Notes under the pieces: model-generated | Database searches by the model: none | What the model was told of the DNA's origin: nothing | Seen by the model: the letters and a program-made list of their open reading frames with translations, nothing else | Origin: Lachnospiraceae bacterium | Lineage (GTDB): Bacteria; Bacillota; Clostridia; Lachnospirales; Lachnospiraceae | DNA length: 64,000 bases | Assembly (NCBI GenBank): GCA_017450065.1 | Contig: JAFSYI010000096.1 | Location: forward strand, 1-64,000 | Reading direction: 5' to 3' | In this document: piece after piece, positions 1 through 38,299 of the stretch | Layout: each line of letters begins with the position of its first letter | How positions within the stretch are numbered: the first letter of the stretch is position 1 | Program-made: the position numbers and the translations under genes

Positions 1-3000
1 CCCTGTACAGTTCGATCGTTATATCGGGATAGCTGTAATCCGGCGCGATGTTTCCGTATGTATCCCTCGGCTCTATCCATTCCTTCGTTCCCAGTATGAC
101 TGTCTTTCCTTCCTTGTAGTCATACATCGTTTCCTCACGGACTTCTCCGTTATCGGATACAACGCAGGTATCATCGATGTTTATTACCACATCTTCGGCC
201 AATGCATACCCTTCAGGTGCAGCTGCTTCATGAAGTATATATCTTCCCTCCGGAAGTCTTACCGCCTTAACCTCTGCATACCTTGCAGCTTCCGCTGCAT
301 CGATCTTTCTTGTCGAGAACAGTACCGGCTTATCCGAGCTTATCCACTCTGCCACCTTCTCTTTTGCTTCATTATAAAGCTCAAGTGATGCTCCGCTTAA
401 GTATGATCCGTCGCTTATATCCTTCTTTGAAAGCATGATCTCAAGCGGCTTATCCTTCATTACAATGGGAGCGGGTATCGTATTGCCCTGTTCATCAACC
501 TTGAAGCTTATATCCTCTGCCATCGCATAACCGTAAGGTGCTGTGATCTCTCTTAAGATATATGATTTTCCTGCCTCAAGCCTGGTACCGTATATTACAT
601 TGTATTTTGCGTAGGCCGCTTTCTCCTCGGGTGAAAGCATTGACTCTTCGCTTACCGGTGTTATAAGTGTCTGCTTCTCTCCCGATACGAACTCAAGCAC
701 TACCCTGCCTGTCTCGTCAATTATCTGAAGAGTTGCTCCGGGAAGCTCATCGCCTCCTGTGATAACCTGCTTGGAGATAACTGCCTTAACGGATGCGTCG
801 AACATGTCAACACTCTGTGTTACCATTCCGTTGGCATCTGTCTTCTCGAATTCGGAGTAATCCTTAACCGTGAAGTACAGGTCATCTGCCTTTACATATC
901 CGGCGGGTGCCTTTGTCTCTACTACCTTATATCTCTTTCCTACCTGAAGGAGACCGTAGTTGATGAGCACTGCACCGTCAGCGGGACTTATCCATGAGAA
1001 TATCTGTGTATAGTCACTGCCTGCCTGCTCATAAAGAGCCAGCTCCGCACCTGCCACATAATCATCCGCTCCGCCGCTTAATCTCTTCTTGCTTATCTCT
1101 ACCCTTATCGGGCGGTCGTACATTGTAAGCGTTGCTTCATTTCCGGAAGCACTTTCCTTAACGCCTGCTTCGGCACTTGCGCTTGCATCCTGAGTGATCT
1201 GGATGGTTCCGTTGCCCTTAACCATGAAGGTAATTGGCTCTGCCGTGTAATATCCCTTCGGAGGCTCTGCCTCTTCAAGAGTATAGCTTCTGCCTACTTC
1301 AAGCACTGCCGCTATCGTATGAGGCTTACCTGTGCTCACCCATGACTCGATTATCTCTTCTCCATCAAGGATCCTTAACCTTGCACCTGACAGTTCTGCA
1401 TCGCTGCCCATCTCCTTCTTGGAGATCGATACATTGATGGCTGCATCCTCCATGATGATGGTCATGCCGTTGGTGCTTCCGCTTGTACGTGCGTTGGTTG
1501 TAACTGTTCCGTCTTCGTTAACGGTGAAGGTGATATCCGTCGTAAGGTTGTAGCCTATAGGCGAGGTATCCTCATGGAGCAGATAGGTCTTGCCTGCTTC
1601 GAAGCCCTTCGTACCGTTTTCTTTATCATTGTTCTCTCCGTTGCCGGAATCGGACGTACCCGTTACTGTTGTCTCAATGAGCTTAGGTGTTGTTCCGCTT
1701 ACCCATTCAAATACAGGCTTCTCCGATCTGTTACCCTTCTCATCAACCTCGTATACCTGAAGCGTTGCACCGGCCAGCTCATCCGATCCGCCGATCTCTC
1801 TCTTTGAGATGTATACCCTTATTGAGTCATCGCTCATCTGGCATACAAGCGGTGTGGTGATCGAGCCGTTTACAGTTGTTCCGTCAAGAGTCACGCTGTT
1901 GGTCCTTGCAGCATCTACTGCGGGAAGTGCGTAACCTGCGGGCGCCTTAAGCTCCTTAAAGTAATATGTTCCCCACGGAAGATCGTTTATAACAAGGCTC
2001 TGTCCGTTCACATATTCCGCAACCTTATCCGCTGCCATATACAGCTCTCCGTCCTTATAAAGCTCAAACATGGCGTCTGAAACATCAAGCTGTACCTGAC
2101 TTCCGGAAAGCTGTCTGCCAAGCTTGATGAGGCTGATGCTTCCCTTACCCTTGGTATTGGGAACTGTTGTAATCTCTGTCTTTGTACCTTCCGCATAAAC
2201 AGGTACCGTCTTTTCTGTTATCCTTCCGTCTTCATCCTTAACCGGCCTGTCATTCTCAGTTATGCTGAATTCATATCTGGTTCCGTCTGCAACATAACCT
2301 GCCAGTGCTGCCGATGCGCTGTCCTCAAGGAAGTAGTAATCGCCCATTGTAAGGTGCTCTGCCATTACCACTCCGGAGGCATCGCCCGTTACGGATGTTA
2401 CAGGTATTTCATCATTGCCCTTTCTGTATACATTGAACTTAATACCTGCTATGGCATTTCCGCTGTCCGCATCCACTTTGACGAATTTTGCCGAAGCCGT
2501 GATCTCCGAGTTAACGAAGGTGAATTCTATCGGCTCTTCCATTGTATTGCTCTTGTCTATTGTGAATGCAAGTCTGAACTTACTTACGGCATAGCTTATA
2601 CCCGAAGGTACATGTGTTTCCTCGAAGTGATAATCACCGTAGGTCAGTCTTCCGATCACATCAGCTGTTATAATGCCTTCATCATTTGTCTTATAGGTTC
2701 CTACCTTCTCGGACTTCGTATCATTAATAAGTACGAATTCCACTCCTGCAGGTGATGCGGGCTGGGTTCCCTCAAATACCTTCTTAAGAGAAACATATCC
2801 GTAGCCCTTCCTGTTGTACATGCTTGTCGACTGAGGCTGCATTACATTAGTCTTTGCATCCGCATTGTTGGCATCGATTGTAAGAGTAGCACTTCTTACC
2901 TGTGTATCCTCCGGAAGAGCTTCGTAGCCTTCCGGTACCGCTGTCTCGAGGAAGTAATATGAACCCCATTCCACATTGGATATTGTTATCTTTCCGCTGG

Positions 3001-6000: not shown

Positions 6001-9000
6001 GGATCTGGGCATTCTCTACCCTGAGTTCGTCTCCGTTAAGATCAACTGTTATCTCTTTTGATACATTTTTGGCATTTATCTCGAATGAATATGTGCTGTC
6101 TTCGTCCAGTACATATCCGTCCGGAGCCTTTGTCTCCTTAAAGTAATATGTTCCCCATTCAAGTTCGCCGGCCCTTACATATCCGTTTTCGTCGGATACA
6201 AGATCTTTTCTTATCGCTGCGCTGTCACCCTTCTTGTAAAGATCGAATACTGCGCCCTCAAGTCCGTCATTTGTACCCTTGATAACCTTCTTAAGTCTGA
6301 CTGAACCCTTCTTGGGTGTATTGATCACCATTGCATTGCCGTTCTTGTTTATGTCGGCATTGTCAAGCGTTACGGTCTTTCCGTTATCCGCCGGAGTGAT
6401 CTTAAATGAATATCTGTTGTCGGAAGGTTCATAACCTTCGGGCGCTTCCTTCTCAATGAAGTAGTAATCGCCTGCTCCGAGTCCCTTCTTGACGATCTTT
6501 CCGTCGCTTCCGCTGGTAACCGTGCCAAGATCGGTCTCATTGCCATCCTTAACCCTGATAAGGCTGAATACCGCACCTTCAAGAGGCCTTCCGTCAGCGT
6601 CCGCCTTAACGAACTCAACATTTGCCTGTATTAGGGTATTATCAAATTCATGAGATATCTCCTTACCCTGGGCATCAATACTAAACTCGTATGGCGAATC
6701 TACCTTTTTGAAACCTTCGGGTGCCTTGGTCTCATACAGACGGTATGTTCCGTAAGGAAGACCGGTCACTGAAAGTCTTGCACCGTCGGTTTCAAGAGTC
6801 TGCGGTACCGATAAGAAGCCTGCTGTCCTGTCATAGGTGTAGTGTCCTGCTTCTCCCGTAACCTTAACGTTCATCTCCGAGTTATCCTCATACTTGACAA
6901 GCTTGAATTCCGCTCCGGTTAACTCGTTGTTATTGCCGTCCATCTTGACTATGGACAGATTACCGTAGATCTTTTCATTGCTTACAGGTATTATGTTAAC
7001 TTCTACTGCTGACCTTGTATTTGTCTCATCGATCACAACAGTATTGCTGTTGGCTGCGTCGCCTTCAGGTAATACGAAGCCCTTGGGTGCTGATATCTCC
7101 CTGAAATAATATGTTCCGAAAGGAAGATTCTCAACTGTGATCTCACCTTTGTCACCGGTCGTATAAACAGTATCCGCATCCGGATAAAGCTCTCCGTCCT
7201 TATAGAGTACAAAATCGGCTCCTGCAAGTGTGTGTCCCTCGCCGTCATCCTTTATAAGCCTGATCGCGCCGGGCTCTTCCTTATTCACCGCACCCCTGTC
7301 ACCTGTCAGATCGGCTTCAAGGCTGTCAGCGCCAATGGTAAATCTGTATACTGCATTCTCATCGAGCACATAGCCTGCGGGTGCCTTTATCTCCTTAAAG
7401 AAGTAGTTACCCCACTCAAGGTTGTCGACAAATATCTGTCCGCCGTCCTTGGTAGTATATTCGCCAACCTTATGCTCATTATTTCCGAAGATTTCGGATA
7501 TCCTCTGTATTATACCGCTCGGATTGGATGAATACAGTTCAAATACAGCTCCGTCAAGCTTCCTGCTTCTGTCTGAGTTATACTTCTCGAACTTAACCTT
7601 GCCAAGCTTCCTTACATTCTCTGCAGTGATCTCTATAAGCTTATCCTGCTCACTGATACTGAACTCATACTGCTCTTCATTCAGTTCATAACCCGGTATG
7701 GCAACAGTCTCTTTGAAGTAGTAGTCACCGTACTCAAGCTCTCCGATCCTGTCCTTTGATATCATACCGTTTACGGTCTTGTATGAACCGACCTTCTCGG
7801 TAGATGCCGAAGCGCTGTCCTTGTTTATTACTCTGTAAAGCTCGAACTCAACGTCATTAAGCTTATTCTCATCATCGTTCTTATCGATCTTTACAAGCTC
7901 AACAAAGCCCTTGATGCGCTTATCCTTTATACATATGGTCTTTACATTGACTGTCTGTCTGTTATCCGGAGTATTTCTCTCATCGATCGTAAACATTCCG
8001 GCGTTCTCAACGGTTATAAGATATCCTTCCGGAGCCTTGACTTCCTTCACGTAATAGGTCCCTACAGGAATACCGTCAACTCTCAGACTTCCCTCACCGT
8101 TGGTTACATATTCAGATACAGCGCCTTTCTTATCGCTGCTGTATACATAGTTGCCGTTGCCGCCGTCCGTTGCAAATACTCTGTCTGTATAAGCGGCATC
8201 TGAATAGATCTCAAATACAGCTCCCTCAAGAACAACGGTTCCGTCCTCATTGGTCTTGATAAGCTCTACACTTCCGTATTCTCTGCTGTTAAGCATGGTT
8301 ATTATGAGCGGAGTATTAACCGATGCAGCTACGTTCTCCCTGTCGATCGTCTTGCTTTCGGTAAAGCGGTTTTCCGGAAGTACATAGCCTGCCGGTGCAG
8401 CGGTCTCCTCGAAGTAGTAGGTTCCCCACTCAAGATCCTTTACTGTTATCTGGCCGTTTGAATCAGTCTCATACAGACCATCGGGTGTCTCGGCATTGAC
8501 TATCTGTGTCTTAACGCCGTCATTATCCCTCCACAGCTTGAAGAATGCTCCCACAAGCCTGTTGCCTGTCTGCTCATCTACCTTTATAAGCTGAATGCTG
8601 CCTCTTGAAGGACCGTTGGGCATTTCGAATTTAAGCGATCCGGTAAAGTCAAGGTGTTCCGCATCGATCGTGAACTCAACCGGTGTATCGACCTTATCAT
8701 ATCCTTCCGGAGCTACGGTCTCTGTAAAGAAATAATCACCCCATTCAAGCTGTTCAGCCCTGATGATTCCATTTTCGTCGGTGGTGTAGATACCTACGAC
8801 ATCATCCTTATTGAAGATGCCAAGTATCTTTCCTTTCTTATGAAGCTCGAACTGAGCGCCTGCAAGACCTTCTCTTCCGGCGTCACCGACAGCATACTTC
8901 AGAAGCTCAGCCTGACCGGGCTTCCTGTAGTTATATGCCGTATTATCTTTTCTGCTTTCGGCATTTGCTTCTACGATGGTGCCCATGTTGGACTGGTCTA

Positions 9001-12000: not shown

Positions 12001-15000
12001 CTGTCGTGTAGGTATATGAGCCCGCACTTCCCTTTACATAGATAAGTGCATCCGTATCATCATCCTTAAGATAGAATTCCGCACCGTCAAGAGCTTCCTT
12101 ATTGGTCTCATCCTTCTTCTCAATGGCAATGGAACCCTTTCTTGCCGTATTTACAACAACAGCAAGTCCGTCCTGCTCGCCATCCGCTTCTGCAAGGTTA
12201 AGAGTTACAACCTTGTTATTGTCTTCTGCGGTTATGGCAAAGCTGTACTGCTTATCGCTCTTTATATAACCTGTGGGAGGAACAGTCTCCTCGAAATAAT
12301 ACTCGCCTGCTCCGAGACCGTTCTTAAATACGCGGCCATTTACATTGGAGGTAACCGTACCGAGATTTACGGGCTCCCCGGTTCCGTTCTTCTTATAAAG
12401 CGTAAATACCGCTCCTTCGAGAACCTTACCGTTCTCATCTGTCTTCAGGAACTCAACTCCTGCCTGGATAAGTGAATTCTCGAAATCATGCGTAATCTCT
12501 TTACCCTGGATATCAACATTGAACTCGAAAGGAGTCTCGATCCTGTTATAGCCCTTAGGTGCCTTGCTCTCGTATACACGGTATGTTCCGAAAGGAAGGT
12601 CTGTTACGCTGAGATATGCGCCGTTAGTGGTAAGAGTCTGCCTCTCCTTTACGGTCTCTGTTTCCTTATCAAAGCTATAGCTTCCGTCAGAGCCCTTAAG
12701 CGCAATGTTCTTCTCGGTTCCGTCTTCAAACTTTACAATATAGAACTCGGCACCGCTCAATTCATTTTTATCTGCATCAACCTTGCGAAGCTTTAACGAT
12801 CCGTAGATCTTCTCATTACTTACCGGTATTACATTAACATCTACCGATGAAGCCGAATTGGTCTCATTGATGGTAACCGGCTTCGTCTTTGCTGCATCCC
12901 CTGCCGGCAGTACGAACCCATCCGGTACGGATATCTCTTCAAAGTAATATGTTCCGTAAGGAAGATCGCTGATCAGGATCGAGCCTGTATTATCTGTTGT
13001 ATAAACAGTATCTTCATCCGGATAACGTTCCCCGTCCTTAAACAGTATAAAGCCGGCTCCCGCAAGGGTATGTCCCTCACCGTCATCCTTTACAAGCCTG
13101 ATGGCACCATGTTCCTCCTTGTCGGTCGCGCCCTTTGCACCCGTAAGATCTGCTTCAAGATTATCTGCATCTATCGTGAAGTAATATTTTGTTTCCTTAT
13201 CGAGTACATAGCCGACAGGAGCCTTGGTCTCCACGAAATAATATGTACCCCACGCAAGATCTTCCACGCTGATCAGTCCGCCGCCGGAAGTGGTATATGT
13301 ACCTACCTTACGATCGTCTTTTCCGAACAGGCCGGCTATCCTGCCCACGGTATCTTCGGGGTTGGTAAGCCACAGTTCATATTCTGCCCCGTCAAGCTTC
13401 TTTGTTCTGTCTGAATTGTATTTCTCAAATACAACCTTACCCTTAAGCCTGTCATTAACAGCCTTTAAGGTGATAACCTTATCCTGCTCTCTTATGCTGA
13501 AGCTGATGGGTTCGGAACTGAAGGTATATCCTTCAGCGGTTGCCGTTTCTGTAAAATAGTAATCGCCGTACTCAAGAGCTCCGATCGTATCCTTTGCTAT
13601 CTTACCGTCAACGGTCTCAAAGTGGCCGATCTTCTCATCTTCATTGCCACCCGTTACCTTAAACAGATCGAAACCGACACCGTTAAGCTTAACCTCACTG
13701 TCCTCACTGTCATACTTGTTAAGCTCTACATAACCCTTAATACGCTGATCCTTAACATATACTATCTTAAGGTTAACATTCTGTCTGTTATCCTCTGTAT
13801 TCTGCTCATCTATCGTGAAGCGTCCGGCATTCTCAACCGTTATGATATAACCTTCCGGTGCCTTTACCTCTTTGATGTAATATGTACCTACAGGGATACC
13901 GTCAAGCGTGAATGAACCTTCGTTTCCGGTAACGAACTCAGATACCGTACCGGTCTTACTGTCGCTGAAGTAGTAGGCTGCATTACCCTTGTCTTCCGCA
14001 TAAACCTTATTCTTATAGTTTGCATCCGAATAAATCTCGAACACAGCATCCTTAAGCACAACGGTTCCGTCCTCGTTCTGCTTGATAAGCTGCATGCTTC
14101 CGAGAGCCTTACCGTTGAGCATGGTTATTACTTCGGGTGTCTTAACGGAAGCCTCTATATTGTCCTTATTGAGTATTGCCTTCCCGGACATACGGTCAGC
14201 GGGAAGAATATAGCCTGCGGGTGCAGTGATCTCTTCGAAGTAGTATGTACCCCAGTCAAGTCCGGTAACCGTTATCTGACCCTCTGAATTGGTAGTGAAC
14301 AGCCCGTCCGGCGATCCGGTATTGATTATCTGCTTTGTAACTCCGTCAGCCTCCTGCCAGAGCTTAAATGCAGCGCCCGCAAGAGTGTTTCCTGTATTCT
14401 CATCCTTCTTGATGAGCTGTATGCTGCCCTTACCCGGTGTGTTATTAAGCGAAAGCTTCGTACTTCCGGAGTAATCAAGGTGCTTTGCATCTATTGTGAA
14501 ATCAATGGGTGTCTCATTCCTGTCATAACCTGTGGGCGCCTTGATCTCAACGAAGCTGTACTCTCCCCATTCAAGATCCTTAACCACGATCATACCCTTC
14601 TCATCTGTGGTATAGGTTCCTATTGTAGTCTCAGATTCAATGAGTCCAAGCAGCCTGCTTCCCTTAATCTTAAGTTCAAACTGCGCACCCTCAAGGCCTA
14701 TGATATCAGTGCCGTTCTCGGTATATTTAAACAGCTCGGCCTTACCCTTAAGCCTGTTATCATATGCCGTATTATCCTTTCTGCCCTCAGCATTGGCCTC
14801 TACGATCTGTCCCATGTTTGACTGATCAACCGTAAAGTAATACTTTGTATCCTTATCAAGCTCATATCCTTCAGGTGCCCTGGTCTCCACAAAGTAATAC
14901 GTACCTACATTAAGGTCTGCCTTTGTGGTAACCAGACCGTTCTCATCGGACTTAATGCTTTCGTAATTCTTAACAACCCTGCCGTCCGGACCGTAGAGCT

Positions 15001-18000
15001 CGAATTCCGCTCCCGCAAGAGCTTCCTTATTCTCCGCATCCTTCTTGACAAGCTTTCCGCCGCCAAGGATCAGTGTATCAACAGCTGTTCCGGCGTTAAC
15101 GGTCTTGGATACATTCTGCGCATCGATCGTAAATTCATATCTGGTTTCCCTGTCAAGTGCATATCCTGAAGGAGCCTCTACCTCCATGAAGTAATATGAA
15201 CCCCATTCAAGACCGTCAGCCTGTGCGTAACCGTCAGAACCGGTCACAAGCTCCTCGTAACCCTTAACGACCTTGTTACTCTTTGCGTCGTACAGTGCGA
15301 ATACGGCTCCGGCCAGAGGACTTTCATCCCCGGCTGCAACCTTCTTTATTATTGCACTGCCCTTAAGGGGCGTATTTACTATTGCGGAAAGACCGTTGAC
15401 CTTCTTCTCGATACCCGGAAGCGTAAGTGTCTGTCCGTTATTTGCTTCCGTGATCGTGAAGCCGTACATCTTTTCAGTATCGGCATTATAACCCGTCAGG
15501 GCATTTTCCTTAAAGTAGTATGTTCCGGCACCGAGTCCCTCAACGCTTACAATACCCTTATCATCGGAGCTTACCGTTGTCTGAGACTTATATTCGCCAT
15601 CAATGAGCTTAAACAGTGTAAAGGATACACCCTGAAGAGGTTCATCCTTATCATCCACCTTGATGAACCGGATATTGGCCTTAATAAGTGAATTCTCGAA
15701 ATCATACTCTGCCACCTGACCCTGTCTGGTGATCACGAATTCACGCGGTATATTAACAAGATTATATCCTTCCGGAGCCTTGACCTCGTATACTCTGTAG
15801 CTGCCGTAAGGAAGACCGGTAACGCTAAGGACACCATCCTTATCCGTATCCAGAGTCTGGGCTGTTCCCGACTTATCATACTTATAGCTGCCGCCCTTTC
15901 CGGAGGTAGTGATCTGTACCTCCTTTCCGTCAGCATCAACCGACATAAGCTTAAAGGACGCTCCTGCCAGTGACTTGCCGTCAGAATCCACCTTGTGAAG
16001 AAGCAGGCTTCCGTATATGCGTTCATTGCCTACCGCAATAACGTTTACATGAACTGTCTGACCGTCTGCCCTTTCTTCATCCGTAAGAGCTTTGACCGTA
16101 TTATCCGCATTGATGGTTACGGATGAAGTCTTCGCTGCATCACCCGAAGGAAGAACAAAGCCTTCAGGAGCACTGATCTCTATGAAGTAATAGGTTCCCC
16201 ACGGAAGACCGCTTACGTTTATCTCACCGTTTTCATCACAGGTGAAGGTTGTCTTATCATCGGGATAACGCTCACCATCCTTATACAGCTCGAATACCGC
16301 GCCTTCAAGAGTGTGACCCTCGCCATCGTTCTTTATAAGGCGGATCGCACCCGGAGTCTGCTTATTGTATATTGTATATTTCTCTGTAAGGTCGATAAGA
16401 AGATGTCCCTTATCAACTGTGAAAGGATAGCTTCCCGTATCAAGATCATAACCCTTGGGCGCACTGATCTCTCTTATTACATAGTCACCCCACTCAAGTC
16501 CGGTAAAGCTTAACTTTCCATCCTTATCGGTTATGCCTGTCTTTATGGCTTTGGTAAGATCGTCGGCACTGTACAGACCGAAGGTTGCTCCCTCAAGAGC
16601 GATCCCTGTATTCTCATCATACTTGATAAGGCTTACCTCACCCTTCTTCCTTGTATTCTCAGCGGTTACCCTTAATGCCTTGCTTGTATTCTCACTGATA
16701 CTGAAGCTGTACTTCTTTGAAGCATCAAAGCTGTATCCTTCCGGAGCAGAGATTTCAACAAAGTAGTAGCTGCCGAATTCAAGGGAGCCTATCATATCGG
16801 ATGTGATCATACCCTTTGAATCAGTGGTATAACTGCCCACCTTGCTTCCGTCATTCTTATACAGTTCAAAGACAGCTCCCTCTATTGCCGACGAATCTGC
16901 CTGATCAACCTTAAGCAGTTCCACGTAACCGCGGATCTTATCATTCTTTACGGTTACCTCTGCGGTTGCTCCGTTACTGCTTACATCAAAGGTATATTTA
17001 CCGTTATTTACAACGTAGCCTGCGGGTGTTTCCTCAGTAAAGTAATAGCCCGATCCGTAAGGAAGCCCGGTTACGTTTATTGTACCGTTCTTATCCGTAA
17101 CATAATCATTGGTCGCACCATCCGTACCGCCGGCCGCATAGGTATATACACCATTCTTAAGAACTGCGTATACCTCTTTTTCATTCACATCATAGAGATG
17201 GAAGGTTACGCCGGCCATGGCCTTACCTGTATTCTTATCCGATTTTACAAGCTTAACGCCGCCGCTTACAGGTATGTTTGATACATTGATCACATATACC
17301 GGATCCCCGGTAAGATCAATGACCGATCTGCTGGTGGTGTTATCGATCGTGAATGTACCTGTTGAAGATGATGTTCCCACATATCCCGAAGGAACAGTCT
17401 CTGTATATGTATAAGTTCCCCAGTCAAGATCGGTGAACTCAACGATACCGTTACTGTCTGTGATTCCCGTGAGTGTCTGGGTTGAATCCTTCTTTGACAG
17501 TGTAAAGGTCACACCCGAAAGAGGCTTCTCACCGCCTCCGATAAGCTCACTGTATTTCTTAACTATGCGAACCCTGAAAGGTATTCTCTTATTTAATACG
17601 GTATACGTTCCTTCATAAGAACCACTCTTCATTGATGCAGTGATAAGCGAGTTACTTACGGAATTGTTTACCACTCCCTTTGAGCCCACCGTGAATTTCA
17701 TTACTATATTCCCGCCGGTATAGCCGTAAGGACAGGTAACCTCTTCGATCGTATAATTACCGTAAGGAAGCCCGTCTACGCAGAGTGCTCCTTTACTTGT
17801 CGTAAGCCTTGAAGTACCCGATGCTGCGGTAGAGTATGTATATGCTCCGGCATCTCCGGTCACATATATAACATTTCCGCTGTCGGTATCCTTAAGGACG
17901 AATTCAGCCCCGTCAAGTACTGCCTTATTTGTGTAATCCTTCTTAAGAATATTGATCTTTCCGTTTGAATGCTTAACGTTAGTGATAGTAACATCCTTTG

Positions 18001-21000
18001 AAAGGGAAGCCACGCTGCTGTCACTTAACTTAAAGGTCTGTGTTCCGCCAACCACATCATATTCCGTTCCCGAACTAATTGCATTTCCCGATGCGTCAGT
18101 TTCGGTTACGGTATAGGTCCTGCCTGCCGGAAGAGGTGCAAACGTAATCGTCTCACCACCCTTTATCGCAACAGCCTTCTTAGTGGATGATTCGCTTCCG
18201 TTAACATTATAATAGGTAGTTTTGGACGAGCCTGTACCTGTTGTTGATGACAGGGTTACATAGAATACAGTTCCGTCATCTACGGCCTTACCGGCTTCAT
18301 CAACATATGACTTGGTAACCTTAAGCTGACCTGCCATTTTATTTGTAACGGTCACGGACTTGTCACCGTCAACGCCTATGGTAAAGCTCTGGTCTGCAGC
18401 TCCCGGCTTACAGGTCTTGGTTACGGATCCGTCAGAGTAGGTAACCTCATACTCGCGGCCGAAATCATCCGTTGCCTTACTCTTAACCTCGGTTACCGTG
18501 TAATCATCATACTCAAGTCCGTCTATCTTCTTTGCGGTGCCTGCCGCCAAAACGACTTCACTGTAATCCTTGTCAAAGTAGCCCTTTGACTCATTGTAGT
18601 ATTCACCGTCACCGTTCTGAACAGTTACATAGAAGGTCTTTACAGCCGAATCCGAAGGAACAACCTTCTTAAGCAGAGTTATTGAACCGCGCTCTATTAT
18701 CACCTGGTTATTGAATACCGCTTCACTTACCTTATTTCTGTCCACACATACATCCGACGGGTTGTTTGAACTGCCGGATACCTTGTAATAAGTCTCCGTG
18801 GTCTTCTGGCTGATGGTGTATCCGGTATTTACGTTTTCAACCTTTACGGCAACAATGTACTGTGTATTGTCATAAACGAATTTACCGTTTCCCGTTGACT
18901 CGGTGATCCTGAAATAATGCATACCTGCATCAGACTGTCCGAAAGGAATACTGTCAAATGCAACAAGGCTTCCATTATTCTTAACTGTCTGAAGTGTCTC
19001 AAATGCTCCGTTCTTATATTCTTCGAGTCTGAATTCAAATACCTGGTCGGAAGCCGGTGTAGCACCGTCAACCGTCTTCTTTGCCCTGAAGCCTGCGGAA
19101 GATCCCTCGAACTTCTTGCCGTTATACGGCCACATATGTCCTTCAAACCTGTCACTGTGGAACTTCTTTGCTATTACACAGCCGTTAAAGTTACCGCCGG
19201 TGGCGAAATCCACATATGCATTGGGAGCAACTATATGTCCGAAATGAGCCCAGTACTTAAGAGTTATGTTCTTTGTATTGGGGAATACAAAAACTACGCT
19301 CGAGTATTTACCGAACTCAATTGATTCTACTCTGTTTCCGTTGAATGTAACCTCGGGAAAACCGTCAATGTCTTCCGGGGAGGTAACGATAAGCACCGTA
19401 TCTATTGCGGATTCAATATCGGCACCGTAGATATTTATCTTGCTTATTCCCGAAAGTGAACTTAAGGTATAAGTGCTTCCGGAACTGATATTCAGTGTAC
19501 CGTTATCGATATAGTAAGGATCGCCCGATTTCTTGTTCTTGTCTATCGTGTAATCGGACTGTATCCCGTTTACTTCCTGCTTGATGCTGTTAAATGCAGC
19601 ATTAAAGTCAATATAATCATCGGTATAATATACACCCTTTACGTAGTTTATACCGTGCTGTCCACCGTTTATACCATAGGTGTAGTAGCCGTTTGCCTGC
19701 GTTCCGGCCTGATAGTATACACCGTGTCTTGTATTGTCCTTACCAAGGAAGAAGTAATCTCCACCGGTAGTATCAAACCAGTCGCCGGCTTCGAAGTTGC
19801 CCTTGATATAACTGTTTCCGTTATACATGGCATCGTGATGACCCCACCACTGAATGTGAGCATTTCCGCCTGCCGCGATGGGACCTATCGTATGGTTCCT
19901 GTCATCGACATCACCCTCAACAAACATGTTGTAGCTGTTCAGGATATAGCCAAGTGAATATGAACCGCCGTCACCGAGGAATGTACGGTTTGAAATATAC
20001 TGTGCCGTAGCAACCGTCGAGAAGCTTTCAAGGCTTACCGTAACCTCCTGTACTTCTCCGTCCTTATTGGTCACCACATCATCGGTAACCTCTTCCATCG
20101 ACTTAATGTTGCCCTTTTCATCCTCGTTGAAGTGGAAGGTCTTAACATCTTCCACCGTTGCTTCCGGCGCCACCTCAGCCTTTGCCTTATATACTATGTT
20201 TACATCCACGGGATTGGCAGGCTCGATCTCCTCACCGTCAAGAGTGAATGTAATATCGTAAACGTAAATATTCTCTATCAGAAGACTGCTGTCTTTATTC
20301 TCTGCATAAATACTGTCATATACCTCCTGAAGCTTTTCGGGGGCATTCTCCTCCGTAAGCTCAACTGCCTTAAGCACAGCCTCATCGGGAAGATCCGTGG
20401 GATCCTTAAGCGTTACGGTGATTGCTACCTTCGAATCCTCATACTTATATATTCTCTTCTCAGCATCAATGCCGTTTTCCGAAATGCTGTTTTCAGAAAG
20501 GGTCTCATCATCGCCTTCGCCCTTCTTTACAACTATGCCAACAGCTCCGTTTGCAATCGAATCAACGGAGTACTCTGCTGTGATGTCTTCTACATTTTCG
20601 CCTTTTATATATAAAGTAAATGCTTCATTATTAAGTCCTGAGAGACGGATGCCTGTTGATGTCCCGGAGAGAGACGGGACAACGCCGCCCTGTACAGCCC
20701 TGCCGTTGCACAGAACATCTGCATCTGTTTTGATATGTATGCCGTAATATGCATTCTTGGGAAGAGCCTGTCCGTCAAGAGTTATGTTTATATCCTCATA
20801 ACCCGAGCCGCTTATCTCTTTTCCGTCAGATGTTACCTTAAGGGATTTCTCTGCGGCAGGCGCATCCTTTGAAATAAGAGTGATCTGAGGATATCCGTCA
20901 CTCCTTTTCCTGTATTCAACGCTCATCCCCTCCGAAAGGGAGCCTGCTTTAAATACTGCCTGTTCGCCCTGCAGACCCGTAATATAATATATACCGCTGT

Positions 21001-21481
21001 TCTTCTTATACAGTGTTTTACCGAGAACACTCTCATAATCAATAGAAGAGCTTCCCGAAATCGACAGTTCAAATGAATCCTTACCGTTCATCTGATCGGT
21101 ATTGATATATAGGGTGGTTTCATTCTCACCCTTTATTTCTATCCTGTCGTTGTAAGCGGTTACACTTCCGTCATCATTTTGAGCGGAGGTATCCTCACTT
21201 AACTCCTCGCCGATATTTATATCAACCTCTTTCGACGGTTCATCTGCGGCAAGCACGTCATCCTGACTGCTTCCGGTATCCTCCGTCAGCGTTGTCTGTG
21301 GATCCGGAACATCCGTTTCCGGTATCTCACTGCTCTGCGGTTCTTCTGTAAGAACAGATTCTTCCGCCGTGATCAGCATGTCGCCTGTTACACTTGCCAT
21401 GACACTGCAGGTATTCTCCACAAGCATCGCAACAAGAGCTATCATGGCTACGATTGACTTAAACAGCTTTCTTCTCTTCAT
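1..21481 (-). CDS. Giant SpaA/Cna_B-repeat surface adhesin (3' end outside window)
   Basis: An open frame of at least 7160 codons starts at ATG 21481 behind AAAGGAGAG and runs off the left edge; I followed it through the whole region and met no stop. Residues 1-30 are a signal peptide (MKRRKLFKS, hydrophobic core, VMAS), followed by an acidic Ser/Thr/Glu-rich stretch. Residues about 495-790 resemble a choice-of-anchor-A adhesin head (YNMFVEGDVDD, IAAGGNAHI, VAPNAYVDF, GCVIAKKF, GHMWPYNG). About 790-900 resembles a streptococcal pilin isopeptide-linkage domain. From about 900 on come some 55 modules of about 107 residues with the SpaA/Cna_B pattern: an early Lys in LxKxD, GAxFxLY, then WGxYYFxExxAPxGY carrying the Glu, and a terminal VxN. 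Known families of this type form Lys-Asn isopeptide bonds; function here (adhesion, cell-wall display) is inferred. A sortase motif would lie beyond the window. Confidence 0.93.
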   Translation of the reverse strand, partial: MKRRKLFKSIVAMIALVAMLVENTCSVMASVTGDMLITAEESVLTEEPQSSEIPETDVPDPQTTLTEDTGSSQDDVLAADEPSKEVDINIGEELSEDTSAQNDDGSVTAYNDRIEIKGENETTLYINTDQMNGKDSFELSISGSSSIDYESVLGKTLYKKNSGIYYITGLQGEQAVFKAGSLSEGMSVEYRKRSDGYPQITLISKDAPAAEKSLKVTSDGKEISGSGYEDINITLDGQALPKNAYYGIHIKTDADVLCNGRAVQGGVVPSLSGTSTGIRLSGLNNEAFTLYIKGENVEDITAEYSVDSIANGAVGIVVKKGEGDDETLSENSISENGIDAEKRIYKYEDSKVAITVTLKDPTDLPDEAVLKAVELTEENAPEKLQEVYDSIYAENKDSSLLIENIYVYDITFTLDGEEIEPANPVDVNIVYKAKAEVAPEATVEDVKTFHFNEDEKGNIKSMEEVTDDVVTNKDGEVQEVTVSLESFSTVATAQYISNRTFLGDGGSYSLGYILNSYNMFVEGDVDDRNHTIGPIAAGGNAHIQWWGHHDAMYNGNSYIKGNFEAGDWFDTTGGDYFFLGKDNTRHGVYYQAGTQANGYYTYGINGGQHGINYVKGVYYTDDYIDFNAAFNSIKQEVNGIQSDYTIDKNKKSGDPYYIDNGTLNISSGSTYTLSSLSGISKINIYGADIESAIDTVLIVTSPEDIDGFPEVTFNGNRVESIEFGKYSSVVFVFPNTKNITLKYWAHFGHIVAPNAYVDFATGGNFNGCVIAKKFHSDRFEGHMWPYNGKKFEGSSAGFRAKKTVDGATPASDQVFEFRLEEYKNGAFETLQTVKNNGSLVAFDSIPFGQSDAGMHYFRITESTGNGKFVYDNTQYIVAVKVENVNTGYTISQKTTETYYKVSGSSNNPSDVCVDRNKVSEAVFNNQVIIERGSITLLKKVVPSDSAVKTFYVTVQNGDGEYYNESKGYFDKDYSEVVLAAGTAKKIDGLEYDDYTVTEVKSKATDDFGREYEVTYSDGSVTKTCKPGAADQSFTIGVDGDKSVTVTNKMAGQLKVTKSYVDEAGKAVDDGTVFYVTLSSTTGTGSSKTTYYNVNGSESSTKKAVAIKGGETITFAPLPAGRTYTVTETDASGNAISSGTEYDVVGGTQTFKLSDSSVASLSKDVTITNVKHSNGKINILKKDYTNKAVLDGAEFVLKDTDSGNVIYVTGDAGAYTYSTAASGTSRLTTSKGALCVDGLPYGNYTIEEVTCPYGYTGGNIVMKFTVGSKGVVNNSVSNSLITASMKSGSYEGTYTVLNKRIPFRVRIVKKYSELIGGGEKPLSGVTFTLSKKDSTQTLTGITDSNGIVEFTDLDWGTYTYTETVPSGYVGTSSSTGTFTIDNTTSRSVIDLTGDPVYVINVSNIPVSGGVKLVKSDKNTGKAMAGVTFHLYDVNEKEVYAVLKNGVYTYAAGGTDGATNDYVTDKNGTINVTGLPYGSGYYFTEETPAGYVVNNGKYTFDVSSNGATAEVTVKNDKIRGYVELLKVDQADSSAIEGAVFELYKNDGSKVGSYTTDSKGMITSDMIGSLEFGSYYFVEISAPEGYSFDASKKYSFSISENTSKALRVTAENTRKKGEVSLIKYDENTGIALEGATFGLYSADDLTKAIKTGITDKDGKLSFTGLEWGDYVIREISAPKGYDLDTGSYPFTVDKGHLLIDLTEKYTIYNKQTPGAIRLIKNDGEGHTLEGAVFELYKDGERYPDDKTTFTCDENGEINVSGLPWGTYYFIEISAPEGFVLPSGDAAKTSSVTINADNTVKALTDEERADGQTVHVNVIAVGNERIYGSLLLHKVDSDGKSLAGASFKLMSVDADGKEVQITTSGKGGSYKYDKSGTAQTLDTDKDGVLSVTGLPYGSYRVYEVKAPEGYNLVNIPREFVITRQGQVAEYDFENSLIKANIRFIKVDDKDEPLQGVSFTLFKLIDGEYKSQTTVSSDDKGIVSVEGLGAGTYYFKENALTGYNADTEKMYGFTITEANNGQTLTLPGIEKKVNGLSAIVNTPLKGSAIIKKVAAGDESPLAGAVFALYDAKSNKVVKGYEELVTGSDGYAQADGLEWGSYYFMEVEAPSGYALDRETRYEFTIDAQNVSKTVNAGTAVDTLILGGGKLVKKDAENKEALAGAEFELYGPDGRVVKNYESIKSDENGLVTTKADLNVGTYYFVETRAPEGYELDKDTKYYFTVDQSNMGQIVEANAEGRKDNTAYDNRLKGKAELFKYTENGTDIIGLEGAQFELKIKGSRLLGLIESETTIGTYTTDEKGMIVVKDLEWGEYSFVEIKAPTGYDRNETPIDFTIDAKHLDYSGSTKLSLNNTPGKGSIQLIKKDENTGNTLAGAAFKLWQEADGVTKQIINTGSPDGLFTTNSEGQITVTGLDWGTYYFEEITAPAGYILPADRMSGKAILNKDNIEASVKTPEVITMLNGKALGSMQLIKQNEDGTVVLKDAVFEIYSDANYKNKVYAEDKGNAAYYFSDSKTGTVSEFVTGNEGSFTLDGIPVGTYYIKEVKAPEGYIITVENAGRFTIDEQNTEDNRQNVNLKIVYVKDQRIKGYVELNKYDSEDSEVKLNGVGFDLFKVTGGNEDEKIGHFETVDGKIAKDTIGALEYGDYYFTETATAEGYTFSSEPISFSIREQDKVITLKAVNDRLKGKVVFEKYNSDRTKKLDGAEYELWLTNPEDTVGRIAGLFGKDDRKVGTYTTSGGGLISVEDLAWGTYYFVETKAPVGYVLDKETKYYFTIDADNLEADLTGAKGATDKEEHGAIRLVKDDGEGHTLAGAGFILFKDGERYPDEDTVYTTDNTGSILISDLPYGTYYFEEISVPDGFVLPAGDAAKTKPVTINETNSASSVDVNVIPVSNEKIYGSLKLRKVDADKNELSGAEFYIVKFEDGTEKNIALKGSDGSYSFDKETETVKERQTLTTNGAYLSVTDLPFGTYRVYESKAPKGYNRIETPFEFNVDIQGKEITHDFENSLIQAGVEFLKTDENGKVLEGAVFTLYKKNGTGEPVNLGTVTSNVNGRVFKNGLGAGEYYFEETVPPTGYIKSDKQYSFAITAEDNNKVVTLNLAEADGEQDGLAVVVNTARKGSIAIEKKDETNKEALDGAEFYLKDDDTDALIYVKGSAGSYTYTTDTQGVSILTTQGGRLAVSELPYGNYRIEEITYPYGYLDSDIEMKFSIGTEGVVNRSVSNKLIVASMQRGEYEGTYTVYNKRIPFRVRILKKYDPLLSDKQKALEGVTFTLKKDGSEQIWTAVTGKDGVAEFDALEWGTYTYTETVPTGYVGTESSTGSFTVDSNTDKSLIDFTGTPVFVVNVDNTPVSGGVKLVKSDRNTQEVMSGVGFRLYNAGGNPVYAVLTNGVYAYASSDTEGAVSEYTTDSKGEIHVSGLPYGSDYYFVEITPAGYIVNNNKYSFDVKDNGAEAEVTVKNDKIRGYVELLKKDKTNGSALAGAEFKLYKADGTEIGSYTTDDNGVITADKIGALEYGSYYFAEVSAPDGYIFDKEAKYEFEIKNNTSDPIKIEVENEREKGRVSLIKYDKDTGIALKGATFGLFRATDLENPVATGVTDKNGRLAFTGLNWIDYVIRELEAPKGYDLDETEYGFTVDGSHLVIDLTEKYTIYNKQTPGAIRLVKNDGEGHTLEGAVFELYKDGERYPDSDITYTCDENGAIFVDDLPWGEYYFIETVAPEGFVLPEGDAARTSSVIINADTTKAALTAEEKANGETVHVNLIVVGNEKIYGELELHKVDSDRKSLAGATFRLYSVTTEAGKDTETEVTTTGQAGVYEYALSGTAMELETDADGVLSVKGLPYGNYLIREEKAPEGYNRDENPKFFKIQKQAYKEVMEFENSLVKANVKFVKVDNNDKPLEGVAFLLSKQIDGVRMNQTLAVSDSKGIVEFKGLGTGTYYIEEQPLTGYAENKELYGFTITAENNGQTLTLPGIEKKIDGYSAIVNTPLKGTAVIKKVVKGETTPLAGAVFALYDAKSNKAVEGYGALITGEDGYAKAEELEWGSYYFKEVKAPEGYALDTETKYGFEINAQNVTATVDAGTAEDEIILGGGKLVKKDAESKEVLAGAEFALYTGDGEAVKNYERIVSDAEGLVTTKGDLNIGTYYFVETKAPEGYDADDSRYYFTIDQSNMGTIVEANAESRKDNTAYNYRKPGQAELLKYAVGDAGREGLAGAQFELHKKGKILGIFNKDDVVGIYTTDENGIIRAEQLEWGDYFFTETVAPEGYDKVDTPVEFTIDAEHLDFTGSLKFEMPNGPSRGSIQLIKVDEQTGNRLVGAFFKLWRDNDGVKTQIVNAETPDGLYETDSNGQITVKDLEWGTYYFEETAAPAGYVLPENRFTESKTIDRENVAASVNTPLIITMLNSREYGSVELIKTNEDGTVVLEGAVFEIYSDAAYTDRVFATDGGNGNYVYSSDKKGAVSEYVTNGEGSLRVDGIPVGTYYVKEVKAPEGYLITVENAGMFTIDERNTPDNRQTVNVKTICIKDKRIKGFVELVKIDKNDDENKLNDVEFELYRVINKDSASASTEKVGSYKTVNGMISKDRIGELEYGDYYFKETVAIPGYELNEEQYEFSISEQDKLIEITAENVRKLGKVKFEKYNSDRSRKLDGAVFELYSSNPSGIIQRISEIFGNNEHKVGEYTTKDGGQIFVDNLEWGNYFFKEIKAPAGYVLDENAVYRFTIGADSLEADLTGDRGAVNKEEPGAIRLIKDDGEGHTLAGADFVLYKDGELYPDADTVYTTGDKGEITVENLPFGTYYFREISAPKGFVLPEGDAANSNTVVIDETNTRSAVEVNIIPVSNEKIYGNLSIVKMDGNNNELTGAEFKLVKYEDNSEMNVKVTGEAGHYTYDRTAGFLSVPQTLETDGARLSVTGLPYGTYRLYETKAPEGFKKVDSPYEFSIDAQGKEISHEFDNTLIQANVEFVKADADGRPLEGAVFSLIRVKDGNETDLGTVTSGSDGKIVKKGLGAGDYYFIEKEAPEGYEPSDNRYSFKITPADNGKTVTLDNADINKNGNAMVINTPKKGSVRLKKVIKGTNDGLEGAVFDLYKKGDSAAIRKDLVSDENGYVRAGELEWGTYYFKETKAPDGYVLDEDSTYSFEINAKNVSKEITVDLNGDELRVENAQILGQAKLVKQDSVTGEPVQGAVFTLYSAKDDKAVEGYEEITSDAKGVIITGKDLKAGNYYFKEKTPAPGYEINEDKYSFTISQDNMDKVVSAGQNGKALNTPLKGRVEIFKYTDSADGLTQTGLAGAEFTLYREESLLGINYFKEGQVYTTGADGTITVTDLLWGNYKFVETKAPAGYVIDRTELTFTISATQLDYTGEYRLSLKNEADKGKIGLIKYYAIDGENKGTLEGASFKLWRIDGTEAVQIANNTADGLYVTNKEGRITVTDLEWGSYCFEEISAPDGYAMPDNRRSDTITLNAQNVEESIKSPLTVPMTNDKIYGNVELIKVDDATPANPLAGAVFSLFTENGDKVYVTGKDGVYSYSEKTADTAMTTPENGKITVMQLPYGSYYFVETDAPEGYLVNNEHINFTIEVNQAADAEARVSKTCINASVRAAVSFLKADTDKDTPLEGAVFTLYKAGAGENGSDLEISDVKSDEYGRVTYGNLGVGSYYFREKSTPEDAYKLSTVRYTFTVTGEDNGKTLSLDNVPVNVVINYPKYGSVRLQKFYSVNGSREGTLEGAVFALYRIDEEGNEEFIKDYVSGSAGIIGVRNLEWGSYYFIEKSAPAGYVFDENRKYSFRIDQENVTQVQLVEADNPRQTGSVELEKIDSVDNKPLDGVVFELYKDWGKSTQSLVGTLTTENGRAERQGLLWGDYTLIEKSPITGYVLNETPYRFTIDGDNLTASFTGVDAIKNDRVRGYVELLKKNSETKAPMSDVVFELYKGTESNSKYVASYITNANGKLADETGSEKIGPLDFGEYYFKEVTPTGYVPNEDVITFKIDTNGQTVSFTDNKTVFNTPENGAVILRKTDENGAPLAGAQFTLYATTPKTIGQTLSSLFSDSYEYGTYTTNENGEIRVNGLDWDNYFFIETKAPKGYEIIEPGKKYEFTIDAQSTKTAIELGTIVNKRQTGTLELTKLDDETHRALEGAQFKLFRTENGVDTDVSAQYGASSGVFSTASSGKITISNVEWGSYYFLETAVPEGYEALPEDTQVRSATLTIDANNADAKTNVMQPQSTSMYNRKGYGYVSLKKVFEGTQPASPAGVEFVLINDTKSEKVGTYKTNDEGIITADVIGRLTYGDYHFEETHVPSGISYAVSKFRLAFTIDKSNTMEEPIEFTFVNSEITASAKFVKVDADSGNAIAGIKFNVYRKGNDEIPVTSVTGDASGVVMAEHLTMGDYYFLEDSASAALAGYVADGTRYEFSITENDRPVKDEDGRITEKTVPVYAEGTKTEITTVPNTKGKGSISLIKLGRQLSGSQVQLDVSDAMFELYKDGELYMAADKVAEYVNGQSLVINDLPWGTYYFKELKAPAGYALPAVDAARTNSVTLDGTTVNGSITTPLVCQMSDDSIRVYISKREIGGSDELAGATLQVYEVDEKGNRSEKPVFEWVSGTTPKLIETTVTGTSDSGNGENNDKENGTKGFEAGKTYLLHEDTSPIGYNLTTDITFTVNEDGTVTTNARTSGSTNGMTIIMEDAAINVSISKKEMGSDAELSGARLRILDGEEIIESWVSTGKPHTIAAVLEVGRSYTLEEAEPPKGYYTAEPITFMVKGNGTIQITQDASASAEAGVKESASGNEATLTMYDRPIRVEISKKRLSGGADDYVAGAELALYEQAGSDYTQIFSWISPADGAVLINYGLLQVGKRYKVVETKAPAGYVKADDLYFTVKDYSEFEKTDANGMVTQSVDMFDASVKAVISKQVITGGDELPGATLQIIDETGRVVLEFVSGEKQTLITPVSEESMLSPEEKAAYAKYNVIYGTRLEAGKSYILREITAPYGYAMAEDISFKVDEQGNTIPAPIVMKDKPLEIMLSKKDISDGSYLSGASLELYNEAKEKVAEWISSDKPVLFSTRKIDAAEAARYAEVKAVRLPEGRYILHEAAAPEGYALAEDVVINIDDTCVVSDNGEVREETMYDYKEGKTVILGTKEWIEPRDTYGNIAPDYSYPDITIELYR
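6303..12140 (-). repeat. 18-domain adhesin super-repeat, copy 2 (C-terminal copy)
   Basis: This stretch of the adhesin gene holds 18 SpaA-like modules in the same order as the adjoining copy at 12141-17965. Matching landmarks sit 5824-5844 bases apart all along it, for example the GAG-type module near 6430 versus 12268, the LNVGTYYF-type module near 9035 versus 14866 and the CPYGY/YPYGY-type module near 11900 versus 17720. DNA identity is partial and protein identity moderate, so the duplication is old. Boundaries are approximate. Confidence 0.8.
12141..17965 (-). repeat. 18-domain adhesin super-repeat, copy 1 (N-terminal copy)
   Basis: This is the N-terminal copy of the 18-module unit. In protein order the modules carry distinctive signatures: PYGNYTIEE, WGTYTYTETVP, PYGSGYYFTEE, FGSYYFVE, WGDYVIRE, PWGTYYFIE, PYGSYRVYE, GAGTYYFKE, WGSYYFME, NVGTYYFVE, WGEYSFVE, WGTYYFEE, PVGTYYIKE, YGDYYFTE, WGTYYFVE, PYGTYYFEE, PFGTYRVYE and GAGEYYFEE. 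The same series restarts in copy 2. Within the unit, modules 6-8 and 16-18 are themselves similar, pointing to an older internal duplication. Confidence 0.8.
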
Positions 21482-21502
21482 TTTTCTCTCCTTTGAAATA
21501 TA

Positions 21503-21655: not shown

Positions 21656-21784
21656 GAGGCAAAATCCGCCCCTTAACAATAAAGACTTTATGCCTTGTCC
21701 AAACGGGTCAAATTCGCCGGAAGTAAAAAGACTCCTTTTAGTATTTCGTCAGTTTAAACAAATAATTTAGATGTTTTTTGGATA

Positions 21785-21820
21785 TAAATTTAAAGACCGG
21801 AATGATACCGGTCTTTAGTG
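21785..21820 (-). terminator. Rho-independent terminator after scpB
   Basis: TAAAGACCGG (21791-21800) and CCGGTCTTTA (21808-21817) make a perfect 10-bp stem with a 7-base loop about 65 bases after the scpB stop. On the minus strand it is preceded by AAAACAC and followed by an A/T-rich tail. It ends the scpA-scpB unit and insulates it from the adhesin gene. Confidence 0.75.
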
Positions 21821-21880: not shown

Positions 21881-22630
21881 TCAGATATCAAGCTTCAGCG
21901 ATACCTCTTCCGCGGCTTCCTTTTTAAACTCTTCGATCCTGTCGGGACTGACTGTCGGAAGATCATCCAAAGATGTTACATTGAAGCTTCTTAAGAATTC
22001 CTCAGTCGTTCCGAAAAGGAGCGGCCGGCCCGGAGCCTGTAATCTTCCGAGCTCTGTGACCAGTCCGTACTCAATAAGCTTGTTCACCGCATGATCGCAG
22101 CTGACTCCTCTTATCTTCTCTATCTCAAGCTTTGTGACAGGCTGCTTGTAGGCGATGATGGACAGAGTCTCAAGCATTGAATCCGTCAGCGAATATGATT
22201 TGGGAACCTTCGCTATCTTGATAAGATGCTCGTACATGGAAGCCTTGGAACACATCTGAACCGATTCCTCCAGCTCAATGATCGTAAAACCACAGTCGGC
22301 ATTGGAATCATATTCATCCTTAAGCTCGGCAACAAGCTTCTTCGTCTCCTCCGTATCACGGCCCAGAACTCCGGCGAGCTTCTTATACTCAACGGAATTA
22401 CCTACAGAAAACAGTACTGCTCCGATAACTGCCTTCGGGTTATCCACCGGTCTTACCTCATGATCTTCGCCGTCTTTCTCCTCCATAGGGTTTACCGGTT
22501 CTTCGCCGCCTGTTTCCTCTTTATGCGATAACTGTTCTTCACCAGGTATATCAGTCTCTTTAACGTCCTGTATTTTTCCTGTGTTTTCTTCTGTATTTAA
22601 TTGCTTTGTTTCATTTATATTATCTGCCAA
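21881..22630 (-). CDS. scpB: Segregation and condensation protein B
   Basis: ScpB dimerises through winged-helix domains and binds ScpA in the Smc-ScpAB condensin that compacts and segregates the chromosome. The core (about residues 60-235) has the family features: AVIGAVLFSVG near the start, the LSIIAYKQPVTK segment followed by IRGV, and the GRPLLFGTTEEFL motif. The protein is 249 residues, longer than the usual 180-200, because of an acidic low-complexity N-terminal extension of about 60 residues. The start is a TTG at 22630 with GGTGGAG about 11 bases upstream; the next in-frame ATG (residue 49) has no good ribosome binding site. It follows scpA with an 80-base gap in the same transcription unit and ends at a terminator. 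Smc is encoded separately at 46071-49631. Confidence 0.93.
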   Translation of the reverse strand: MADNINETKQLNTEENTGKIQDVKETDIPGEEQLSHKEETGGEEPVNPMEEKDGEDHEVRPVDNPKAVIGAVLFSVGNSVEYKKLAGVLGRDTEETKKLVAELKDEYDSNADCGFTIIELEESVQMCSKASMYEHLIKIAKVPKSYSLTDSMLETLSIIAYKQPVTKLEIEKIRGVSCDHAVNKLIEYGLVTELGRLQAPGRPLLFGTTEEFLRSFNVTSLDDLPTVSPDRIEEFKKEAAEEVSLKLDI

Positions 22631-36307: not shown

Positions 36308-36309
36308 TT

Positions 36310-38259: not shown

Positions 38260-38299
38260 CTATCTATCCTCTGGATCGTATTTTCTTGATCTTAGCCTT

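Follow-up and report, generated by a model that had tools for sequence, protein, structure and literature searches.

A giant SpaA-module surface protein in a Lachnospiraceae genus, a predicted sortase-anchored fibrillar adhesin

The stretch of DNA analysed here (the window; 64,000 nucleotides from a Lachnospiraceae bacterium) opens with a giant surface-protein gene on the minus strand (2..21481). In the ORF scan, its frame (21481..2) starts with an ATG and continues for 7,160 codons to the window edge, where it runs off the contig; the earlier note had described a single uninterrupted frame of more than 7160 codons from ATG 21481, and no stop codon was found in it. The window contains no N bases, and an open frame of this length would arise by chance with a probability of ~10^-189, as calculated from base composition. 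A strong ribosome site, AAAGGAGAGAAAA (AAAGGAG core; 21482..21494, minus strand), abuts the ATG. The codon-position order GC1 > GC3 > GC2 was observed in 12 of 14 segments of 1,500 nt, the second and third being the exceptions. The gene is under purifying selection: comparison with the nearest species fetched gave dN 0.217 and dS 1.79 over 3,573 codons, and thus a dN/dS of ~0.12 that is rough, since dS is near saturation. Upstream lie scpB (21881..22630) and scpA (22711..23460), both on the minus strand and named from Pfam; the designations mmdA, tpi, pgk, gap and sbcD/sbcC come from inspection. The first base of the window is also that of its contig (G000:C67; 79,777 bases long, one of 100 contigs in an assembly 88% complete), so the contig offers no further sequence on the left in which the stop could be found.

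The predicted protein begins with a signal-peptide-like N-terminus (aa 1-30; 21392..21481), recognized by inspection in agreement with the signal peptide noted earlier, and a comparable start is present in 23 aligned giants among those listed. A variable acidic stretch separates it from a conserved N-terminal domain (aa 100-480; 20042..21184) that has no Pfam match at 0.01. The head follows at ~aa 513-780 (19142..19945) and matches both PF20597, the 'putative ice-binding-like adhesive domain' (1.8e-22, 80.9 bits against a cut-off of 23.8), and TIGR04215, choice-of-anchor A (1e-18, 68.1 bits against a cut-off of 29). The choice-of-anchor-A search that had been suggested thus bears out the adhesin-like head, and on these model scores the protein carries the adhesive domain expected in fibrillar adhesin-like proteins. 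No solved structure matched the head by sequence at E <= 1, and the two modules behind it (aa ~799-1040) have no Pfam match at 0.01. They are followed by a DUF7601 module, placed by Pfam at aa 1051-1168 (17978..18331) and by our own module model at aa 1043-1149 (4.6e-07); DUF7601 is listed among the isopeptide domain families in Table 1 of PMC12617251. At the other end of the frame, the contig edge cuts what appears by inspection to be the beginning of a Cna_B-like module (aa 7123-7160; 2..115). All these features lie on the minus strand.

Most of the frame is taken up by an array of 55 SpaA modules (aa 1164-7109; 155..17992, minus strand), defined by Pfam together with our own module model and spaced at 96-128 residues. 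Our model returned 57 rows (55 SpaA modules with E <= 2.4e-14, the DUF7601 module and one weak row at 0.013), and Pfam SpaA (PF17802) gave 4, 15, 15, 15 and 6 stretches on five cut pieces of the protein, again 55. This single chain of 55 modules is the repeated stalk domain expected of fibrillar adhesins, and the earlier count of about 55 repeated modules of isopeptide type proved accurate. The choice of family needed correction: the suggested SpaA model identifies the repeats of the window, whereas Cna_B (PF05738), also proposed, has no match in the genome under study, was rejected as the module family, and is represented by three modules at the matching C-terminal position in a relative. In a sequence search, a piece comprising three modules found solved collagen adhesion proteins (best 4.6e-17). 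The Lys-Glu-Asn/Asp triad, published for SpaA and related families (PMC12617251, Table 1), is present in all 55 SpaA modules. Lys and Glu each occupy their column in 56 of 56 rows of the module alignment (the 55 SpaA modules plus DUF7601), and the acceptor of the 55 SpaA modules is Asn 43 times and Asp 12 times; 43 Asn and six Asp stand at the regular place, five Asp two residues further on, and the last Asp was read by eye, the Lys of the module following it being only guessed. For comparison, Asn or Asp occurs at either of two such places in 23% of random positions. Across all giants fetched (635 module rows), 620 of the 624 rows with a letter at the Lys column have Lys, and all 633 with a letter at the Glu column have Glu, counts that are biased upward because the selecting model itself rewards these residues. 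Retention of the triad at every one of the 55 positions argues that each putative lock has been individually selected.

The stalk has a higher-order structure. Modules 1-18 (~aa 1160-3106; 12164..18004) and 19-36 (~aa 3107-5046; 6344..12163), all on the minus strand, form two copies of an 18-module block: the mean identity of modules i and i+18 is 0.458, against 0.27-0.34 at the other offsets from 1 to 44, with minor rises at offsets 10 and 28. This duplication is old, because the copies share 65.7% DNA identity and their dS of ~1.8 is near saturation. Neighbouring modules are on average 31-32% identical, and collapse of the repeats in assembly, against which a check had been suggested, is not indicated. 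At the DNA level a tandem-repeat search returned one 15-bp array only, since the modules have diverged. In the nearest species fetched, contig C308 of genome G036 carries the modules in the same order as the window giant. It spans window modules 7-39, and for 30 of these 33 (all but modules 10, 17 and 29) the best match stands where the order predicts, at an identity of 0.62-0.83. Moreover, 29 of the 33 resemble a G036 module more closely than they do any other module of the window giant, the exceptions being modules 10, 16 and 24, with a tie for module 27. This maintenance of order and positional orthology between species implies that the stalk is not a homogenised tandem repeat. The last modules of the array, 51-55 (aa 6545-7109; 155..1849, minus strand), have Asp acceptors, and modules 51-54 are 80-90% identical to the paralogue on C17 and 60-86% to that on C61.

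The C-terminal end of the protein lies outside the contig, consistent with the earlier expectation of a true length beyond the window. The genome under study contains three giant N-terminal parts (on C67, C61 and C17) and three giant C-terminal ends (at the start of C24 and the ends of C66 and C61). An identical 141 bp opens both C17 and C61, and another identical 141 bp closes both C61 and C66, a pattern typical of an assembly with k = 141 that broke at repeats; k141 names occur in some record titles. Of 24 same-genus relatives searched, 20 have mmdA after scpB on a single contig within ~310 bp, an adjacency that marks the empty site. In G002, G021 and G022 scpB and/or mmdA were unmatched at the thresholds used, and in G011 a giant follows scpB while mmdA opens another contig. 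One of the 20, G003, carries scpB twice, on C28 and C58: one copy has the empty site behind it and the other precedes a giant N-terminal part, and this pair in one bin may reflect a strain mixture. Because scpB precedes the window giant and C24 opens with a giant C-terminus followed by mmdA, C24:2-382 is most likely the end of the window giant; the leftward search for a stop, blocked on the contig itself, thus leads there by synteny. The equivalents in the close relatives G026, G027, G003 and G035 run 797, 796, 796 and 794 aa beyond the residue equivalent to the last one of the window, and those in the more distant G002, G019 and G024 run 853-1,079 aa beyond it. On the basis of the close group (794-797 aa), the full length would be ~7,957 aa, of which the ~670 aa that fall between C67 and C24 are missing from the assembly. 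An 806-aa frame on a G036 contig opens with PDITIELYR, the last residues of the window frame, and contains three Cna_B and three SpaA stretches.

The putative anchor of the window giant lies beyond the window and is assigned through C24 by synteny; anchors are present in relatives. Among 26 C-termini of the family, 24 carry GPxTGD, one VPATGD and one TPATAD. The earlier note had proposed a search for a sortase motif; LPXTG was tried and rejected, as it is present at none of these ends and LPxT[GA] is absent from the 7,160 aa of the window giant. GPxTG is instead the suggested sortase signal of the family. By inspection, a hydrophobic stretch and a K/R tail lie behind the motif at the 26 listed ends, for the window gene by way of C24 only. 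Three V(L/A)GxR motifs stand ahead of GPxTGD in 22 of the 26 ends, and two of the other four are contig-cut; this trio just before the anchor is kept even between giants with different stalks. A sortase gene (C66:43061-43891) adjoins the C-terminus of one giant in the genome under study. Its best model is class B (TIGR03064), at 134.8 below the equivalog cut-off of 153.75, and it scores 22.7 against the class C cut-off of 160. It is the only one classified of the seven sortases in that genome. Homologues 47-70% identical to it lie within 3 kb up- or downstream of giants on 12 of 17 relatives' contigs, a count that omits G021:C40, G035:C135 and four G036 contigs, on all of which the giant runs off an end and leaves no informative flank, as well as the contigs of the genome itself. 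No such sortase was present in the stretches examined of G019, G024, G002, G016 and G029 (in G029, ~0.6 kb upstream), and none adjoins the window giant as placed, which has mmdA downstream. The glycolytic gene tpi occurs on 11 of 26 giant-bearing contigs listed, C17 included, often directly before the giant. One full-text search of the library used, for 'sortase' with 'GPXTG', returned no paper, though the motif may be spelled otherwise.

The window giant belongs to a genus-wide family. Its N-terminal domain is kept in 33 of 37 genus genomes, including the one under study (15 of 17 of good quality), and the last 760 aa of the window frame, used as a query, gave matches in 31 genomes out of 61. 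Among 196 genomes sampled evenly across the order, 14 contained the N-terminal domain, again including the one under study, and in the other 13 it was partial and lay in frames of 813-1,815 aa. The earlier remark that proteins this large are rare in bacteria holds only in part: more than 41,000 proteins over 5,000 aa are known, most of them eukaryotic (PMC11573180), and in this genus the family is the rule. Complete giants in relatives measure ~3,800-6,800 aa. A contig scan with the closer C-terminal alignment (the 23-sequence N-terminal alignment was too diverse) placed ten of ten named loci in Lachnospiraceae, three of them from goat or sheep rumen by title, and four others of the ten bear RUG names, which we take to denote rumen genomes. 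The organism of the window is a gut bacterium, probably from the rumen.

The heads differ between family members. In Pfam searches of 600-aa slices (aa ~401-1000; window aa 490-800), PF20597 was found in two of 19 giants (the window giant and C17) and List_Bact repeats in two, most others having no named head, and NCBIfam gave TIGR04215 in two of 23 giants and internalin models in two. These counts may be low, since G036:C123 has no PF20597 match although it aligns with the window giant over the whole first 1,170 aa at 51%. Stalks also vary: seven giants have only three or four SpaA modules, and one of these, in G010, has nine FctA stretches in the 2,843 of ~4,630 aa scanned. Between the paralogues of the genome under study, dS is ~2 or saturated, drops to 0.6-1.1 in the last 200 aligned residues and is zero in the common 141 bp, which would fit gene conversion of the C-termini. 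Part of the drop may be general rather than due to conversion, because dS against G036:C86 is also lower, though uneven, in the C-terminal part (1.0-2.9). Family matches in G023:C101 (L061) are split over four open frames and that in G036:C16 (L090) contains a stop (TAG); some of these copies may be decayed, broken or misassembled, or may contain sequence errors. Large exported-looking proteins of another kind (~1,650-2,465 aa, some cut) stand in tandem near giants in G034 (L053/L098), G009 (L052/L097) and G030 (L126). A further exported protein that is SpaA-like, in G011 (L125:3-4085, minus strand), measures at least 1,361 aa up to the contig edge that cuts it, and by inspection its N-terminus is unlike that of the giant family. 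A giant C-terminus followed by a DmpA-like peptidase gene, named by inspection, on G036:C325 (L093) perhaps represents a further site for giants in that species.

An ECF-promoter-like motif, GACC-N19-GTCTT, lies ahead of the window giant (21682..21709, minus strand), and ECF sigma factors use elements of this kind; the pattern, which for the window giant and 16 others can be written [GA]ACC-N18/19-GTC[TA]T, was found post hoc. The relaxed form [GA]ACC-N16-20-GTCNT occurs in 17 of 24 giant leaders of 330 nt, with 18 matches and spacers of 18 (14 matches), 19 (three) or 20 (one). When the leaders were resampled according to their dinucleotide frequencies, on average 0.45 and at most three of 24 held the pattern in 300 rounds; a stricter first form was found in ten of 24 (control mean 0.19, maximum two). 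The motif was derived from the same leaders, which are related and not independent, and the relaxed form has eight occurrences on both strands of the whole window, so that ECF-type control of the giants, possibly as a common regulon, is a lead only. The three leaders of the genome itself align with others mostly near the ribosome site, and those of C17 and G036:C123 share 108 nt. Six Sigma70_r4_2 matches, five above the cut-off, are present in the genome. A terminator-like hairpin between scpB and the giant (21791..21817, minus strand) is a consensus match only, and its inverted repeat scores on the plus strand too. A c-di-GMP cluster of three genes in a row, two with EAL and one with GGDEF and a periplasmic-binding-protein-like domain, occupies 34352-40624 (minus strand), ~13 kb from the giant. 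Since sortase substrates of Clostridioides difficile are described as being under c-di-GMP control (PMC4591827) and GGDEF/EAL genes occur in the window, Rfam RNAs were searched for. At the gathering threshold there were none in the window and none near the giants in five loci, where the sole match was a Clostridiales-1 RNA 17 kb into C24, away from the giants.

Taken together, the frame, head models, modules and triad are consistent with the giant isopeptide-type adhesin-like surface protein of the earlier note, and the protein is likely a sortase-anchored fibrillar adhesin. Its kind is known, but this variant is unusually large and organised and occurs across the genus; adhesion, bonds and anchoring are predicted from the sequence. 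The signal peptide would direct export of a single polypeptide of ~7,957 aa, and a class B-type sortase would recognize its C-terminal GPATGD and attach it to the peptidoglycan. The adhesive head, ice-binding-like and of beta-solenoid type, would stand close to the free N-terminus; the stalk carrying it would be inextensible and comprise some 60-65 transthyretin-like modules, each presumably closed by its own Lys-Asn or Lys-Asp isopeptide bond within the module. A module measures roughly 4 nm, so 60-65 of them would give a reach of ~250 nm, and the stalk could hold the head a few hundred nanometres off the wall, where it may bind a polymer surface such as plant fibre, mucin or another cell. 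The window giant is one of three paralogues in its genome, within a family in which chassis and anchor remain constant and heads change.

Rival readings fare less well. Three of the five pieces exceed the cut-off of NF033902, 'SpaH/EbpB family LPXTG-anchored major pilin' (297, 270 and 260 bits against 95; a fourth scores 51.8), which would suit a pilin-type subunit that a class C sortase joins into polymers, but the best stretches cover only the SpaA-like part of that model. SpaH/EbpB major pilins are characterized by a pilin motif and a class C sortase. The window giant shows neither: the tripeptide YPK occurs once in the frame, at a module boundary, the giant-adjacent sortase is class B-like with a class C score far under its cut-off, and LPXTG is missing from the frame and the 26 ends, all of which makes a polymerised pilin very unlikely. 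Still less credible is that repeats or separate genes were misjoined into one frame. The assembly is fragmented, C67 ends inside the gene, the identical 141-bp ends carry the signature of repeat breaks, and the family lies in several frames in G023 and is interrupted by a stop in G036:C16. Against such an artefact stand the ~32% identity of neighbouring modules, the divergence of the 18-module blocks (65.7% DNA, dS ~1.8), the order kept in G036:C308 (30 of 33 best matches) and the complete giants in other assemblies.

More weight, though still little, falls to a structural or matrix role as spacer, aggregation factor or shield, in which the stalk would matter and the heads would be incidental. 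The N-terminal domain and the anchor are kept, the heads vary or lack a named domain (PF20597 in two of 19, List_Bact in two) and FctA modules replace SpaA in one relative, as such a role would allow. A changing tip on a constant chassis is nevertheless the pattern of an adhesin under ligand selection, and the window head satisfies two curated models, one of them named adhesive, which leaves this role unlikely beside the anchored fibrillar adhesin. Beyond that preferred reading, and more tentatively, the giants may form a dedicated genus-wide system of long-range tethers, with self-locking stalks on which heads can be exchanged, a GPxTG signal of their own served by a specific class B sortase, C-terminal gene conversion and common ECF-type control; we regard this as possible rather than probable. 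The family offers very long isopeptide stalks in one genus with a module order traceable between species, and lets stalk growth (block duplication followed by individual divergence), length setting and the swapping of heads on a fixed chassis be tested.

The stalk repeats of Periscope proteins are homogenised; in the giants, by contrast, each module is distinct and the module order is conserved between species. Periscope proteins and giants are alike as surface stalks of variable length (PMC9704523). Among the papers listed by searches on giant SpaA proteins and rumen giants, no title or abstract opening describes this family. Giant1-5 of Apilactobacillus kunkeei, 3,000-8,000-aa surface proteins encoded by consecutive genes, are reported to share beta-solenoid domains at their N-terminal ends and recombination within genes (PMC12863079); they belong to another genus and habitat and are likened here by description, not by sequence. 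C. difficile SrtB, a class B sortase, acts on substrates with (S/P)PXTG, an xPxTG signal without the leading Leu (PMC5118464); the giants differ in their leading Gly, their size and the absence of Rfam RNAs at the gathering threshold from the window and from the vicinity of giants in five loci. The closest known systems are the SpaA/Cna_B fibrillar adhesins of Gram-positive bacteria, which have an N-terminal adhesive domain, a SpaA-type isopeptide stalk and a C-terminal sorting signal (PMC8286594, PMC12617251); proteins in the positive training set of one study average 1,196 residues (PMC9210967). The window giant differs from them in its ~8,000 aa, its 55 or more modules, its 18-module higher-order repeat and its GPxTGD signal, and the giant family in its genus-wide occurrence and its common, unnamed N-terminal domain.
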